A stretch of 54,460 nt of DNA. Source: Desulfobulbus sp. Lineage in GTDB: Bacteria; Desulfobacterota; Desulfobulbia; Desulfobulbales; Desulfobulbaceae. The notes beneath the pieces are model-generated. The model worked only from the letters and a program-made list of their open reading frames with translations. It ran no database searches and had not been told where the DNA came from. Positions 47,715-53,866 of the stretch are shown piece after piece; the stretch's first letter is position 1, and each line of letters starts with the position of its first letter. The stretch is from assembly GCF_030824455.1 (NCBI RefSeq), contig NZ_JAVBXR010000102.1, forward strand, positions 1 to 54,460, written 5' to 3'. Both the position numbers and the translations under genes were made by a program.

Positions 47715-47813
47715 ATGCAAACCGTTTCCCGCATCACCAACATCTTTACCGCCCTGGCGCTCCTTCTCGTGAGTGTGGTGGTCGTGGTGCGCACAGGCAT
47801 CGAGGCGCCGTAG
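47715..47813 (+). CDS. ivbL: ilvB operon leader peptide (ivbL-like), 32 aa
   Basis: This ORF encodes MQTVSRITNIFTALALLLVS then VVVVVRTGIEAP. It contains four Leu and six Val codons in twelve positions (LALLLVSVVVVV). E. coli IvbL is also 32 aa, Val-rich and ends in NAP. It sits between a promoter and a strong intrinsic terminator upstream of ilvB, as an attenuation control peptide should. No strong ribosome site is visible. Low leucine or valine charging would stall the ribosome at these codons and favour the alternative fold. Confidence 0.75.
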   Translation: MQTVSRITNIFTALALLLVSVVVVVRTGIEAP

Positions 47814-47876
47814 CGGGAAAAATCCAGACATGAGATTTCAACCCCTGCCGGCGCCAGCCGGCAGGGGTTTTTTTTT
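47804..47876 (+). promoter_or_regulatory. Attenuator of the ilvBN operon (terminator and candidate antiterminator)
   Basis: The terminator arms AACCCCTGCCGGC (47840-47852) and GCCGGCAGGGGTT (47857-47869) form a 13-bp stem with a 4-base loop and a nine-T tail. Upstream, 47804-47817 (GGCGCCG-TA-GCGGG) can instead pair with 47843-47855 of the terminator's rising arm, with one bulge, and prevent its formation. GGCGC at 47756-47760 can in turn pair with 47805-47809. These are the 1:2, 2:3 and 3:4 pairings of classical attenuation. The pairings are by eye, not computed. Confidence 0.7.
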
Positions 47877-47917: not shown

Positions 47918-49609
47918 ATGCACACACTCAACGGCGCGCAAATCATCATCCGTCAACTAGAACAGCTCGGCGTAGACACCATTGCCGGCATTCCGGGCGG
48001 GGCCAACCTGCCCCTGTACGACGCCTTGGCCGCCAGCACGACCATTCGCCACGTCCTCGCCCGGCATGAGCAAGGCGCGGGCTTCATTGCCCAGGGCATC
48101 GCCCGGACCACCGGCAAACCAGCGGTTTGCTTTGCCACCTCCGGCCCAGGCGCCACCAACGTGCTGACCGCCCTGGCCGACGCCTATCTGGATTCTGTGC
48201 CCCTGGTCTGCATCACCGGGCAGACGCCCCGCGCCCTGATCGGCACCGACGCCTTCCAGGAGGTCGACACCTACGGGATGTCCATGCCGATCACCAAACA
48301 CAACTATCTGGTGCGCTCGGCGGCCGACCTGCTGACCATTGTTCCCAAGGCCTTCCAGCTGGCCGGGTCCGGCCGCCCCGGTCCGGTGCTGATCGACGTG
48401 CCCAAGGACGTCCAGACCGAGATGGTTTCCTTCGAGTCCTGGCCGGAACCCCTGGCCGCCGGCGTTGAGCGCTCCCCCGCCTCCGATGGGGCGCAGGCGA
48501 TTACTGCGGCTGCGGCCATGATCAACGCCGCCGCCCGGCCGATGCTCTATCTTGGCGGCGGCGTCATCCACGCCGGCGCGGCGAGCGTGGCCCGGAAGCT
48601 GGCCGAGCAGGGCGAGATCCCCACCGTGGTCACCCTGATGGGGTTGGGCATTCTGCCTTCGGAACATCCGCTGTCGCTGGGCATGCTGGGCATGCACGCC
48701 CCCCGCGCCACCAACCTGGCCATGGAAGAGTGCGACCTGCTGATCGCGGCCGGCGTTCGCTTTGACGACCGGGCCACCGGCCGGATCAGCGCCTTTTGCC
48801 CAGGGGCCAAGGTTATTCACGTGGATATCGACGCCAGCGAGATTGGCAAACTCCGTTCCGTTGACGCGGGCATTGCCGGCGACGCCCGCGCCGCTTTTAT
48901 CGCCCTGCTGCCCCATATCGAGAAACGGCCGCGCCCGGAATGGCGCCGCCGCATCCGCCAGTTGCAGCAGGATCACCCCCGGTTTCATCCCGATGATTTT
49001 GCCCCAGGCCGGCCGTTTCACCTCATCCGTCAGGTGGCGGAGCTGGCCGGGCCCGAGGCCTACATCAGCACCGACGTCGGCAAACACCAGATGTGGGTCG
49101 CCCAGGCCTACCCCCTCACCCGCCCCCGGCAGCTGCTCACCTCGGGCGGTCTGGGAACCATGGGATTCGGCCTGCCGGCGGCGATCGGCGCGGCCCTGGC
49201 CCACCCGGACAAACCGGTGGTCTGCTTCACCGGCGACGGTAGCCTGCAGATGAACATCCAGGAGCTGGCCACGGCGGTTGAACAGCAGGCGCAGGTCAAG
49301 ATCGTGGTGCTCAACAACCAGAGCCTGGGTCTGGTTCGCCAGCAGCAGCGGTTGTTCTACGAGCGGAAATATTTCGCCTCCTCCTACCGGATCAAGGTCG
49401 ATTTCGCCGCCATTGCCCGGGGCTTCGGCTTGCAGGCCTTTGACCTGGACGGCGCGGACAACCCGGACGCGCTGCTGACCGGGGCCATGCAGACGCCTGG
49501 CCCCTGTCTGATCAACGTGCCGATCGACATCGAAGAAGAGGTCACCCCCATGGTGCCGCCAGGCGCCGCCAACACCACCATGATCGGAGGCAGCCATGCC
49601 CGCAACTGA
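47918..49609 (+). CDS. ilvB: Acetolactate synthase large subunit
   Basis: This 563-aa ThDP enzyme makes acetolactate or acetohydroxybutyrate, the first step to valine, leucine and isoleucine. It shows the N-terminal GIPGGANLPLYDAL, the cofactor Glu in RHEQGAGFIAQGIARTTGKP, the FAD-binding central domain and the ThDP motif TGDGSLQMNIQELATA. It lies downstream of the attenuator and overlaps ilvN by 14 bases, so the subunits are translated together. An AGGAGGA site precedes the ATG. Confidence 0.95.
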   Translation: MHTLNGAQIIIRQLEQLGVDTIAGIPGGANLPLYDALAASTTIRHVLARHEQGAGFIAQGIARTTGKPAVCFATSGPGATNVLTALADAYLDSVPLVCITGQTPRALIGTDAFQEVDTYGMSMPITKHNYLVRSAADLLTIVPKAFQLAGSGRPGPVLIDVPKDVQTEMVSFESWPEPLAAGVERSPASDGAQAITAAAAMINAAARPMLYLGGGVIHAGAASVARKLAEQGEIPTVVTLMGLGILPSEHPLSLGMLGMHAPRATNLAMEECDLLIAAGVRFDDRATGRISAFCPGAKVIHVDIDASEIGKLRSVDAGIAGDARAAFIALLPHIEKRPRPEWRRRIRQLQQDHPRFHPDDFAPGRPFHLIRQVAELAGPEAYISTDVGKHQMWVAQAYPLTRPRQLLTSGGLGTMGFGLPAAIGAALAHPDKPVVCFTGDGSLQMNIQELATAVEQQAQVKIVVLNNQSLGLVRQQQRLFYERKYFASSYRIKVDFAAIARGFGLQAFDLDGADNPDALLTGAMQTPGPCLINVPIDIEEEVTPMVPPGAANTTMIGGSHARN

Positions 49610-49922
49610 CACCCACAACCCATCGGAGGCCCAACCCGTGAACACCGCCATCCTGCGCTTGACCGTCAACAACCATCCGGGCGTCATGCTCCAGATCTGC
49701 GGCCTCTTTGTCCGCCGCAATTTCAATCTCGAGGGCATCTTCTGCAGCGCCGTCGATCAGGGCGTAACCAGCTGCATCTGGCTCAAGGTCGACGAAACCG
49801 ACAAGCTCGATCAGGTGATCAAGCAGCTGACCAAGCTGGAAGACGTGCTTGCCATCGAGGAGCGGCCCGACGCCCGGCCCGGCGTCAGCGAGATGGAGGC
49901 GATGATGGCCCGGATCGGCTGA
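49596..49922 (+). CDS. ilvN: Acetolactate synthase small regulatory subunit
   Basis: This is a 108-aa ACT-domain subunit (LRLTVNNHPGVMLQICGLFV, then GIFCSAVDQGVTSCIWLKV). It is short, like E. coli IlvN, and lacks the longer C-terminal part of IlvH-type subunits. It gives IlvB its valine feedback sensitivity. The start overlaps the ilvB end. The next promoter begins 25 bases after the stop. Confidence 0.93.
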   Translation: MPATDTHNPSEAQPVNTAILRLTVNNHPGVMLQICGLFVRRNFNLEGIFCSAVDQGVTSCIWLKVDETDKLDQVIKQLTKLEDVLAIEERPDARPGVSEMEAMMARIG

Positions 49923-49947
49923 AGCCGCCGCCACCCCCAACCCAGGG

Positions 49948-49976
49948 TTGACAACGCCGCAGAACCACGCTAGAAA
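49948..49976 (+). promoter_or_regulatory. Sigma-70 promoter of the AlaC leader
   Basis: TTGACA (six of six) and TAGAAA are separated by exactly 17 bases. Transcription would begin near 49983, some 270 bases before the aminotransferase start codon. Confidence 0.65.
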
Positions 49977-50035
49977 AAAGAGCACCAAGGCAGCACGCGC
50001 CACAACCAATAGACAAGCAGGCAACAAGGCAACCA

Positions 50036-50101
50036 ATGCAACACCAAGTCGCGGCAGCGGCGGCGATGAACCCAGTTCATTGGCGACCGGTTGCTTTCTA
50101 A
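50036..50101 (+). CDS. Alanine-rich leader peptide, 21 aa
   Basis: The ORF encodes MQHQVAAAAAMNPVHWRPVA plus a final F. Five consecutive Ala codons (GCG GCA GCG GCG GCG) are at positions 6-10, and a sixth Ala is near the end. AAGG seven bases before the ATG could be the ribosome site. Its location between a strong promoter and tandem terminators in front of an alanine-aminotransferase-like gene is what a transcriptional attenuator that senses alanyl-tRNA would look like. Ala runs occur by chance in G+C-rich DNA, so the call rests on context. Confidence 0.5.
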   Translation: MQHQVAAAAAMNPVHWRPVAF

Positions 50102-50122
50102 CACATCACTCAACCGAAGCTT

Positions 50123-50159
50123 GCCATGGACTGGAACCCCCGGTCCATGGCGTTTTTTT
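50123..50159 (+). terminator. First of two tandem intrinsic terminators before the AlaC-like gene
   Basis: GCCATGGAC and GTCCATGGC form a 9-bp perfect stem around an 11-base loop, followed by seven T. Confidence 0.8.
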
Positions 50160-50160
50160 C

Positions 50161-50193
50161 AGCCTGGACCGAATGCGGTTCAGGCTTTTTTTT
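50161..50193 (+). terminator. Second of two tandem intrinsic terminators before the AlaC-like gene
   Basis: AGCCTG-G-ACCG-AATG-CGGT-T-CAGGCT forms a 10-bp stem with one mismatch and an eight-T tail. It begins one base after the first terminator's T-run. Confidence 0.8.
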
Positions 50194-50250
50194 CGCCTGC
50201 GAACCCAAGCCCCTGGCCCCGATTTTTCATTCCTTCCACAGGAGATTGTC

Positions 50251-51477
50251 ATGAACAACGAGGTTACCATCCGCTTTGCCGAACGCATGAATCAGTTGCC
50301 GCCGTATCTCTTCGGCATGATCAACAAAATCAAGATGGAAAAACGATGGCAGGGGATTGACGTCATCGATCTGGGCATGGGCAACCCCATGGACCCGACC
50401 CCGGACAGGGTCACGGAAAAGCTGTGTGAGGCGGCGGTCGATCCCAAGACCCACCGCTACCCGGCGGCCGGCGGCATGAAGAATCTCAAGCGGGAGATCG
50501 CCCTGTTCTACAAACGCAAATACGGGGTGGAACTCACCGGCGAGGACGACGTCATCTGCACCATCGGCTCCAAGGAGGGCATTTCCCATCTCTGTCTGGC
50601 CCTGCTTGGTCCGGGCGACACGGTCCTGGTGCCCTCGCCCGCCTTTCCCATCCACATCTACGCCGCAGTCATCGCCGGGGCCAGCGTGCTGCGCTTTCCG
50701 CTCAGTTCGGAGGAGGCGTTTCTGCGCCGGGTTGCCGAGATGTGTCAGTCGCTCTACCCGCATCCCAAGCTGGTGATGCTCAACTATCCCCACAATCCCA
50801 CCGGCGCCCTGGCCTCCAGGGAATTTTTCGCGGAGATGGTTGCCCTGGCAAAACGGTACAATTTCATGGTGATCAATGATTTTGCCTACGGCCAGATCAC
50901 CTACGACGGCCTCAAGGCACCGTCGTTTCTTGAAATACCGGGGGCGCTCGACGTCGGGGTGGAATTCGGCTCGTTTTCCAAATCCTACAACATGGCGGGC
51001 TGGCGGCTGGGCTACTGCGTGGGCAACAAGGAGATGGTCGGCGGGCTGGCCAAGATCAAGGGCTACTACGATTACGGCATCTTTTCGGCCATTCAGGTGG
51101 CGGGGATTGTCGCCATGCGCGACTGCGACGACGCCATTGTCGAGCAGGTGGCGGTCTACCAGAAGCGGCGCGACGCGCTCTGCGACGGCCTGACGCGCAT
51201 GGGCTGGGACGTGGAGAAACCCAAGGCCGGCATGTTTCTCTGGGCGAAGATTCCCGAGCCCTACGCCCAGATGGGCTCAATCCGCTTTGCGGTGGAGATG
51301 ATGAATCGCGCCAATGTGGCCGTTGCCCCGGGCGCTGGGTTTGGCGAAGAAGGCGACGGATACCTCCGCCTGGCCCTGGTGGAAAACGAAAACCGCATCC
51401 GCCAGGCCCTCAAACAGATGAAGCGGGCGCTTGCCGAGATCGATCAGGAGACCAGGAGCGGGACCGCCCAAGGCTGA
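50251..51477 (+). CDS. alaC: AlaC-like class I aminotransferase
   Basis: This 408-aa PLP enzyme has the N-terminal DVIDLGMGNPMDPTPDRV, substrate-binding NYPHNPTGA near residue 185, NDFAYGQI near 210, and the PLP-Lys in GSFSKSYNMAGWRLGY near residue 248. The family E. coli member AlaC is a glutamate-pyruvate transaminase; related proteins make LL-diaminopimelate or act on other amino acids. An ACAGGAG site precedes the ATG. The frame is open far upstream, but that part covers the terminators and is not coding. Regulation by the leader would suit an alanine-forming role. Confidence 0.85.
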   Translation: MNNEVTIRFAERMNQLPPYLFGMINKIKMEKRWQGIDVIDLGMGNPMDPTPDRVTEKLCEAAVDPKTHRYPAAGGMKNLKREIALFYKRKYGVELTGEDDVICTIGSKEGISHLCLALLGPGDTVLVPSPAFPIHIYAAVIAGASVLRFPLSSEEAFLRRVAEMCQSLYPHPKLVMLNYPHNPTGALASREFFAEMVALAKRYNFMVINDFAYGQITYDGLKAPSFLEIPGALDVGVEFGSFSKSYNMAGWRLGYCVGNKEMVGGLAKIKGYYDYGIFSAIQVAGIVAMRDCDDAIVEQVAVYQKRRDALCDGLTRMGWDVEKPKAGMFLWAKIPEPYAQMGSIRFAVEMMNRANVAVAPGAGFGEEGDGYLRLALVENENRIRQALKQMKRALAEIDQETRSGTAQG

Positions 51478-52235: not shown

Positions 52236-52436
52236 ATATGGTAGGTTGCCGCACCTGTGCAACAGGCACACATAAAGACAGTTCTATAAACGGAACACGG
52301 TGCAAATCCGTGACGGTCCCGCCGCTGTAACCGGAATAAATGATCGCACGCCTTGAACGGCGGCCACTGATCATCCTTGATGATTGGGAAGGCGCGATCC
52401 GGCTGTATCTGGAAGTCAGAAGACGTATAGATCAGT
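52236..52436 (+). promoter_or_regulatory. Cobalamin riboswitch
   Basis: The conserved core is visible: GGTTGCC near 52243, then ACGGTGCAAATCCGTGACGG near 52296-52315 (the GGTGCAAATCC signature) and CCCGCCGCTGTAACCGG next to it. AAGTCAGAAGACGTAT near 52413-52428 resembles the 3' B12-box element. An intrinsic terminator follows at 52458, so high cobamide should stop transcription before the bzaF-like gene. The outer limits are approximate. Confidence 0.88.
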
Positions 52437-52457
52437 GCTTCTTGGGAACGCGATGGC

Positions 52458-52503
52458 AAAGGGTTTCAAAAGGATTCTTCCCTTTTGAAACCCTTTTCTT
52501 TTT
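52458..52503 (+). terminator. Expression-platform terminator of the cobalamin riboswitch
   Basis: AAAGGGTTTCAAAAGG and CCTTTTGAAACCCTTT form a 16-bp perfect stem with a 7-base loop, followed by TTTTCTTTTT. It separates the aptamer from the coding gene. Confidence 0.93.
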
Positions 52504-52537
52504 CCGGATACAGACTGTCGCAACGTACGGAGAATAC

Positions 52538-53866
52538 ATGACAACCCAAATTGAATATGCGCGCGCCAACACCATAACCGCGCAGATGGAAGCCGTGGCC
52601 CGCAGCGAAGGACTCAGCGCCGAATACATCCGGGCCAAGGTGGCGCTGGGCGAGATCGTCATCGCCAACAACCCGGCCCGGCCCCACCAGAAGGTGGTCG
52701 GCATCGGCACGGGCTTGCGGACCAAGGTCAACGCCTCCATCGGGGCATCGTCGGACATCTGCGATCTGGCGGCGGAAATCCGCAAGGCCCAAATTGCCGA
52801 AGAGGAAGGCGCCGACACCCTGATGGAACTCTCGGCCGGCGGCGACCTGGACCGCATCCGCCGCGAGGTGCTGGCCAACACCAGCCTGCCAGTGGGCAAT
52901 GTACCCCTCTACCAGGCCTTCAAAGAGACCTCGCGCAAATACAAAAACCCCGCCAAACTCGATCCCGAATTCCTGTTCGAGCTGATCGAGCGCCAACTGG
53001 CCGACGGCCTCAGCTTCATGGCCATCCATTGCGGCATCAACCAGTACACCATCGAACGGCTGCGCAAACAGGGCTTTCGCTACGGCGGGCTGGCCTCCAA
53101 AGGCGGCACCTTCATGGTGGCCTGGATGGACGCCACCGGCAAGGAAAACCCGCTCTACGCCCAGTTCGACCGGGTGTGCGGGTTGATGAAAAAACACGAC
53201 GCCATCCTCAGCCTCGGCAACGGCATCCGCGCCGGGGCCATCCACGACAGCCACGACCGGGCCCAGATGGCGGAGATGATCATCAACTGCGAACTGGCCG
53301 AGCTTGGCCGGGAGATGGGCTGCCAGATGATGGTCGAGGGTCCGGGCCATGTGCCGCTGGATGAAATCGCGGCCAACATCCAGCTGGAAAAACGGATGAG
53401 CGGCAATGCTCCCTACTATGTGCTCGGTCCCCTGCCCCTGGACACCGGCGCCGGTTACGACCACATTGTCGCCGCCATCGGCGCGGCCAATTCGGCGCGG
53501 CACGGCGCGGACCTGATCTGCTACATCACCCCGGCCGAGCATCTGGCCCTGCCCAACGAGGACGACGTCCGCGAGGGCGTGCGCGCCACCCGGCTGGCGG
53601 TGCGCATCGGCGACGTTGCCAAGTACCCGGATCGGCGAGAAGGCGAGAAACAGGCGGCCATGGCGCGGCGCGACATGCGTTGGGACGATCTCCAGCGCCA
53701 TCTCCTGTTCCCGGACACGGCGCAGGCGATCAGGGCTGCGCGCGCCCCGGAGGCCAGCGACACCTGCACCATGTGCGGCGATTTCTGCGCCATGAAAAAG
53801 GGGATGGAGGTCTTTCACGCCGACATTGCCGGCGACAAGATCGCCCCGATCACCCCAACCAGTTGA
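52538..53866 (+). CDS. bzaF: BzaF-like 5-hydroxybenzimidazole synthase (ThiC-family radical SAM enzyme)
   Basis: This 442-aa ThiC-family enzyme ends in the cluster motif CTMCGDFCAMKKG near residue 408, with GLSFMAIHCGINQYT, MVEGPGHVPLDEI and YYVLGPLPLDTGAGYDHI in the barrel. By sequence alone it could be thiamine ThiC. Two context features point to BzaF, which turns aminoimidazole ribotide into the cobamide lower-ligand precursor: a cobalamin riboswitch in front, and cobT 81 bases behind. The ATG follows ACGGAGA. Whether 5-hydroxybenzimidazole or another base is made cannot be read here. Confidence 0.75.
   Translation: MTTQIEYARANTITAQMEAVARSEGLSAEYIRAKVALGEIVIANNPARPHQKVVGIGTGLRTKVNASIGASSDICDLAAEIRKAQIAEEEGADTLMELSAGGDLDRIRREVLANTSLPVGNVPLYQAFKETSRKYKNPAKLDPEFLFELIERQLADGLSFMAIHCGINQYTIERLRKQGFRYGGLASKGGTFMVAWMDATGKENPLYAQFDRVCGLMKKHDAILSLGNGIRAGAIHDSHDRAQMAEMIINCELAELGREMGCQMMVEGPGHVPLDEIAANIQLEKRMSGNAPYYVLGPLPLDTGAGYDHIVAAIGAANSARHGADLICYITPAEHLALPNEDDVREGVRATRLAVRIGDVAKYPDRREGEKQAAMARRDMRWDDLQRHLLFPDTAQAIRAARAPEASDTCTMCGDFCAMKKGMEVFHADIAGDKIAPITPTS

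Follow-up and report, generated by a model that had tools for sequence, protein, structure and literature searches.

The enterobacterial his leader, hisL, is built on a six-segment scheme (A–F) with one terminator, and ivbL is the attenuator of ilvBN. Published accounts name His, Leu, Thr, Trp, Ile/Val and Phe as attenuator signals, together with candidate Cys leaders (PMC3766115, PMC1183508, PMC1262725 and PMC8632094, each in the portions accessible to us), and one of them, in the same portions, suggests that such motifs may stem from gamma-proteobacteria with few transfers (PMC3766115). The word 'alanine' is absent from the accessible main texts of PMC2965389, PMC3766115, PMC1183508, PMC1262725 and PMC8632094. 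Ala codons do occur in an engineered trpL, in which they replace two Trp codons and ribosome stalling relieves termination; this construct is man-made, carries two Ala codons and, in the accessible part of its description, detects translation inhibitors rather than alanine supply (PMC5039519). Among the literature matches listed and in Rfam we found no natural alanine attenuator, in keeping with an earlier note on this DNA that knew of no described alanine-tRNA attenuator of alaC; subscription papers fall mostly outside that search, and a natural alanine attenuator is likely, though not proven, to be a new finding.

The window, a 54,460-nucleotide stretch of Desulfobulbus sp. DNA, contains an alaC-like gene preceded by a leader that we consider very probably to be an alanine-specific, ribosome-mediated transcription attenuator controlling it. 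Like hisL, this leader encodes a peptide with a run of the putatively regulated amino acid and can be laid out as a chain of six segments that pair either as 1:2, 3:4 and 5:6 or as 2:3 and 4:5. Unlike hisL, which is concerned with histidine, it points to alanine and alaC, and in the window both 3:4 and 5:6 are followed by U tracts. By its sequence, the alaC leader is predicted to follow the his-type mechanism but to have a new specificity, and its elements are as follows.

49948–49976, + strand: promoter, TTGACA (49948–49953), 17-nt spacer and TAGAAA (49971–49976), from sequence.
50036–50101, + strand: leader ORF of 21 amino acids, MQHQVAAAAAMNPVHWRPVAF and stop, from sequence.
50051–50065, + strand: five putative regulatory Ala codons, GCG GCA GCG GCG GCG, from sequence.
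50066–50071, + strand: segment 1 (ATGAAC), partner of the start of segment 2 (1:2), from folding.
50074–50086, + strand: segment 2, the predicted antiterminator 5′ strand, starting 8 nt past the Ala run, from alignment.
50121–50132, + strand: segment 3, the 5′ arm of terminator 1, partner of 2 or 4, from alignment.
50142–50153, + strand: segment 4, the 3′ arm of terminator 1, partner of 3 or 5, from alignment.
50122–50159, + strand: intrinsic terminator 1 (3:4; stem 50122–50152) with a U7 tract, from the terminator scan.
50162–50171, + strand: segment 5, partner of 4 or 6, from alignment.
50176–50185, + strand: segment 6, the 3′ arm of terminator 2, from alignment.
50161–50193, + strand: intrinsic terminator 2 (5:6; stem 50161–50186) with a U tract to 50193, from the terminator scan.
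50240–50244, + strand: likely ribosome-binding site of alaC, AGGAG, read by eye.
50251–51477, + strand: alaC-like aminotransferase gene, the putative regulated gene; best NCBIfam model alanine transaminase PRK08175.

A base-level check found the promoter, the 21-amino-acid ORF and the Ala codons just where the earlier note had placed them, and the two tandem intrinsic terminators it described before the alaC-like gene are there as well, the second U tract ending at 50193, 57 nt before the ATG at 50251. Scanning 49500–50500 returned exactly these two terminators, and shuffled sequences gave a mean of 1.2 (sd 1.3), so that two terminators by themselves are within chance. The folded leader (49983–50200) is more stable than its shuffles (z = −5.25; 0/200), mainly because of the terminators, since 49983–50115 alone is unremarkable (z = −1.69; 11/200). 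What places the leader beyond chance is that the same layout is kept in 32 leaders. A promoter scan listed 0 sites, but its −10 rule excludes TAGAAA, which makes it a weak test for a promoter between the terminators and alaC. A T-box or riboswitch could likewise link alanine supply to expression; unlike these classes, the region 49948–50250 has no match at gathering scores to a T-box, riboswitch or amino-acid operon leader (His, Leu, Thr and Trp families among them) in Rfam 15. A loose search (E up to 10, 49850–50350) gave 11 weak matches, none of them an amino-acid leader and all below gathering scores, which we attribute to chance.

Of the 32 Ala-run leaders, some belong to Desulfobulbaceae and others to a second order in the same phylum, and each stands before the same alaC orthologue. 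A protein search of 55 related genomes gave 17 close orthologues (at least 79% identity, window included), 16 of them with upstream DNA; the leader is present in 14 of the 16 and missing in two (G007, G017). Covariance-model searches, with a model of 14 leaders on 73 family genomes and a model of 17 leaders on 257 class genomes, added G070, G071, G075 and G108. The class search matched 34 of the 257 genomes at E ≤ 0.001, 18 of which are leaders and the other 16, on examination, not Ala leaders; in the window's own genome the next match after the leader reached only E 0.002. Leaders L046–L048 and L080 are counted beyond the first 14. Among 59 named orthologues (at least 67% identity), 56 have usable upstream DNA and seven have the leader, five already counted and two new (L089, L109), and Desulfobulbus elongatus DSM 2908 (L083) and Desulfogranum marinum DSM 2058 (L094) are among the carriers; no Ala-run leader was found in the other 49 of the 56, which include G007 and G017 again. 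Across the phylum, 12 of 395 genomes matched at E ≤ 1e-5, comprising three known Ala leaders, five new ones, three Trp leaders and one plain terminator. The families of the five new Ala leaders are two others, and the gene behind each of the five is an AlaC orthologue 68–71% identical to the window's. When the second order, to which one of the five belongs (39 genomes), was searched with the protein, all 11 close orthologues (68–71%) proved to have an Ala leader, and the leader search supplied a twelfth (G646); a paralogue of roughly 50% identity in that order has one in 0 of 7 copies examined.

On an alignment of 84 protein rows, from which same-genome duplicates and short rows had been dropped, the tree has 30 rows with the leader, 52 without and two not counted, and needs seven changes of state; the leader may have had one origin with losses or several gains, both of which fit. 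The earlier note had held that homologous leaders keeping the terminators while lacking the Ala codons would speak against an attenuator: there are 0 such cases among the 32 homologous leaders found. The weaker matches, 16 from the class search and two from the phylum search, proved to be plain terminators or, in one case, a Trp leader, and AlaC follows none of them. The comparison of relatives that the note had proposed finds the Ala run, the TTGACA promoter and the terminators kept, with compensatory changes in 2:3 and 4:5. TTGACA with a 17-nt spacer occurs in 19 of 20 leaders scanned, and in the 20th (L017) TTGACA lies just beyond the 330-nt cut. A T run of at least five follows the stem of terminator 1 in 21/32 leaders and that of terminator 2 in 27/32, so that an intrinsic terminator, at least one of the two hairpins with at least five T, lies between leader ORF and gene in 32/32.

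Two Desulfobulbus genomes have alaC without the leader (L009, L010), and L009 retains a TTGACA-type promoter near the gene. Several candidates were set aside. Weak model matches L049–L052, L058 and L059 are plain terminators without an Ala-run leader, and 15 further genomes with weak class-search matches, together with two from the phylum search, gave no AlaC match; L224, one of these, is a Trp leader. In L211 an Ala-rich ORF end precedes a terminator; we took it as the end of a longer ORF.

The run of 4–6 Ala codons, present in 32/32 leaders, is the only peptide feature common to all. Its constant first and second bases follow from the way the run was defined, and the evidence is therefore its presence and place only; its wobble bases vary among the first 20 leaders. 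The residues before the run differ widely, and those after it read MNPVHWRPVA in the genus, where they coincide with RNA segment 2, and differently in other lineages. An in-frame ATG precedes the run in 19 of the first 20 leaders and in 11 of 12 in the second order, the twelfth having GTG (GTG start only, L170/L182); the Shine-Dalgarno sequence before the leader ORF looks weak in several leaders. Two ORFs are damaged, L080 by an in-frame stop between ATG and run and L018 by a one-base deletion that brings a stop directly after the run, reflecting either switch decay or assembly errors. In 20 leaders, 76 of 92 run codons are GCG or GCA; in ilvB, ilvN and alaC the same two codons account for 38 of the 130 that specify Ala (Fisher p = 1.5e-15, for leaders that are related to one another). 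Given this relatedness and the counts over 32 leaders (GCG 78, GCC 40, GCA 33 and GCT 6), we make no claim of a tRNA isoacceptor preference.

The two alternative pairings kept over the leader set are 50074–50086 with 50121–50132 (2:3) and 50142–50153 with 50162–50171 (4:5). The earlier note was right that a structure competes with the first terminator, as a covarying antiterminator exists, and it missed the second alternative stem, 4:5. Both pairings that it listed, 50026–50034 with 50089–50097 and 50085–50090 with 50140–50145, can be drawn in the window, yet the antiterminator that relatives share is 2:3; we rejected the former of the two listed pairings as the switch, its 5′ strand lying in a pre-ORF stretch that differs among relatives (by eye). 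Twenty leaders were aligned by hand with the structure in mind, which leans the alignment towards structure, and in it 221/239 cells are paired in 2:3, 216/239 in 3:4, 176/178 in 4:5 and 189/199 in 5:6. At three positions of stem 4:5 both partners have changed: C-G has become U-A (L014, L015), U-A has become C-G (L109) and A-U has become G-C (L080). Its observed number of paired or two-sided cells was reached by 0/2000 shuffles. The outermost pair of 2:3, c1-d1, is a standard one in 20/20 leaders, as A-U, G-C, U-A or G-U, and shuffles reached the two-sided cells in 2/2000 and the paired cells in 9/2000 cases. Stems 3:4 and 5:6 were unremarkable in this test (two-sided cells reached by 118 and 113 of 2000), which was run without the outer columns c12, c13 and d13-e13 and the inserted pair fi-gi that the cell counts include. 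The change that preserves 4:5 in L014 and L015 weakens 3:4 to G-U.

The second order has the same four stems in other letters. There, in an energy-swap comparison, every one of the four stems pairs better within its own leader than after swapping (0/5000 permutations); the control 2:5 was reached by only 6/5000, so that relatedness contributes to this result and the single compensations weigh more. The 1:2 stem was computed at −3.5 kcal/mol or weaker in L011, L014, L015 and L018 of the 20 leaders. By sequence and folding, the antiterminator is predicted to exclude the terminator and to depend on the position of the ribosome at the Ala codons.

Among the first 20 leaders, 17 have 8 nt between the Ala run and segment 2, while L048 and L080 have 11 nt and L018 has 7 nt; in the 12 leaders of the second order the segment string starts 6 nt past the run, and pairing begins one to two bases further in. 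Assuming a footprint that extends 12 nt from where the A-site codon begins, a ribosome positioned at the Ala run masks segment 1 and leaves segment 2 free. The computed probability that upstream RNA captures segment 3 has a mean of 0.87 when the penultimate Ala codon is in the A site; at two to five codons beyond the run the mean is 0.29, and the fall is slow in L080, L169, L171, L172 and L177. Known E. coli leaders behave alike in the same scan: in hisL, thrL and pheL capture drops immediately behind the final His, Thr or Phe codon, respectively, and in trpL and leuL two to three codons beyond the final Trp codon or the Leu run, with partial recovery in hisL (two codons later) and leuL. When the sequence from 6 nt past the run to segment 3 was shuffled, the observed value was reached in 126/3200 cases, comprising 26/2000 in the first 20 leaders and 100/1200 in the second order, where the signal is weaker.

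Once both arms are made, a stalled ribosome does not keep terminator 1 from prevailing at equilibrium in 29/32 leaders, so the switch must be kinetic. The terminators of the E. coli thr, his, trp and leu leaders are likewise favoured at equilibrium (4/5 controls), that of phe not. With a stalled ribosome and segment 6 not yet made, 4:5 was computed at 0.5 or more in 26/32 leaders and below 0.5 in 6/32.

These observations suggest the following course. Transcription would start just behind ilvN, with a ribosome following RNA polymerase and translating the short ORF. If charged Ala-tRNA were scarce, the ribosome would stall on the Ala codons and mask segment 1, leaving segment 2 free to form the 2:3 antiterminator and block terminator 1 (3:4); segment 4, thus released, would pair as 4:5 and block terminator 2 (5:6), and alaC would be transcribed. 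If alanine were plentiful, the ribosome would pass the Ala codons, segment 2 would be masked by the ribosome or held in 1:2, and with segment 2 unavailable 3:4 and 5:6 would form and transcription stop. The leader would then most likely permit alaC expression only at times when protein synthesis is short of alanine. We infer translation of the ORF, stalling, termination and the alanine response from sequence elements, conservation, compensatory changes and computed fit. The attenuator proposed in the earlier note gains support from the Ala run, the terminators, the covarying 2:3 and 4:5 stems and the way the Ala codons, by computation, suit the 2:3 switch.

Stalling might instead be caused by the peptide: the nascent Ala run with PVHWRPVA could arrest the ribosome in response to another signal and work the same RNA switch. 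The strong conservation of MNPVHWRPVA after the run within the genus would suit such a peptide, as would WRPPAA in L006 and L014, a sequence that recalls PP-type arrest motifs. Yet the conserved stretch is also RNA segment 2 (GTT CAT TGG CGA), with little synonymous change in the genus, and elsewhere other sequences take its place with 2:3 still possible (MTSMVHRLAAAHL in L048, MDWVH in L089, MDSVQATIGSV in L109 and RETAWAKVGDVT in L175). With the Ala run alone common to all 32 leaders, we regard an arrest peptide as improbable.

Two further readings do without a ribosome-controlled switch at the alaC leader. Its promoter and terminators would yield an RNA of about 200 nt, which could be a small RNA ending at the terminators and acting elsewhere; some terminated leader RNAs act in trans. 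One paper reportedly describes a trans-acting leader peptide (PMC7298713). All 32 elements immediately precede the same gene although their contexts differ, the alternative stems covary and the Ala run is retained, and this makes the small-RNA reading more doubtful still than the arrest peptide. Least credible to us is an ordinary double terminator of the ilvBN operon followed by an unregulated alaC promoter. The element does lie directly behind ilvN in the window, and the stretch from ilvN to the promoter is free of terminators in the scan, but that promoter stands upstream of both terminators, which would cut off its transcripts. The gene upstream of the leader is ilvN in the window (by model) and in relatives (by eye), but where other ORFs take that place, as in L014, L015, L017, L046, L048, L089 and L109, the leader is still found before alaC; in L014 the upstream gene is a weakly ACR3-like transporter and in L017 it encodes a decarboxylase-like protein, both below model cut-offs.

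The product of the alaC-like gene scores 507 bits against PRK08175, below the cut-off of 647, and shares 51% identity with E. coli AlaC and 43–46% with three proteins taken as DapL-type. A separate strong DapL is encoded elsewhere in the genome (590 bits, vs 138 bits for the window gene). By homology below the model cut-off, the window aminotransferase is closest to AlaC and may make alanine. No Ala leader was seen upstream of L019–L024 (43–46% identity), although for L020 the upstream DNA amounts to just 120 nt, and L025 was left out of the count; several of L019–L024 lie behind an apparent dapB end (by eye).

The operon upstream of the alaC leader has a leader of its own.

47715–47813, + strand: ilvBN leader ORF, Val-rich, MQTVSRITNIFTALALLLVSVVVVVRTGIEAP and stop, from sequence.
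47842–47876, + strand: intrinsic terminator of the ilvBN leader, read by eye.
47918–49922, + strand: upstream operon of ilvB (47918–49609) and ilvN (49596–49922), from ORFs and models.

This leader has the same kind of layout as ivbL, and one like it was found in 5 of 6 relatives fetched. The ilvBN leaders have Val/Leu codons and one terminator, unlike the alaC leader with its Ala codons and two. The Val-rich ilvBN leader is a candidate second attenuator at the same locus, about 2.3 kb upstream. Taken together, we think it probable, if less so than alanine attenuation of alaC itself, that the alaC leader is the first natural alanine attenuator and acts as a double gate, in which one stall flips both terminators (2:3 frees segment 4, and 4:5 disarms 5:6), that with the separate Val-rich ilvBN switch in front of it two specificities at a single locus apportion pyruvate to valine/leucine on the one hand and alanine on the other, and that Desulfobacterota have a leader repertoire of their own. 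If so, alanine, an amino acid one transamination from pyruvate, would be a new natural attenuator signal, and the tandem terminators would offer a direct test case for one stall defeating two terminators. Well-formed attenuators in Desulfobulbus and its relatives (Desulfobacterota) would then contrast with the possible gamma-proteobacterial origin, with few transfers, suggested in the accessible part of PMC3766115.

Trp-rich leaders with two tandem terminators occur in other families of the phylum, encoding IIAWIWWLKSKTV (L159), KNWWWWLQV (L160) and NRAWWWWRLLQV (L224), each followed by a stop. They resemble the alaC leader in matching the same RNA model and in having a short ORF, here TGG-rich, and two hairpins each with a U tract; they differ from it in their Trp codons. 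The gene behind is TrpB-like in L159 (737 bits, by model) and L160 (by eye), and L224 is known as a leader only.

Further along the window lies a ThiC-family gene (52340–53866), and a cobalamin riboswitch (52258–52445; Rfam, 73.7 bits) overlaps the beginning of its longest ORF. Homology of this gene begins at residue 68, and it scores 551 bits as ThiC, over the cut-off, and 492 as BzaB-like, under the cut-off. The next ORF we take, by eye, to be CobT-like, and for that reason the ThiC-family gene may have a role in cobamide lower-ligand synthesis.
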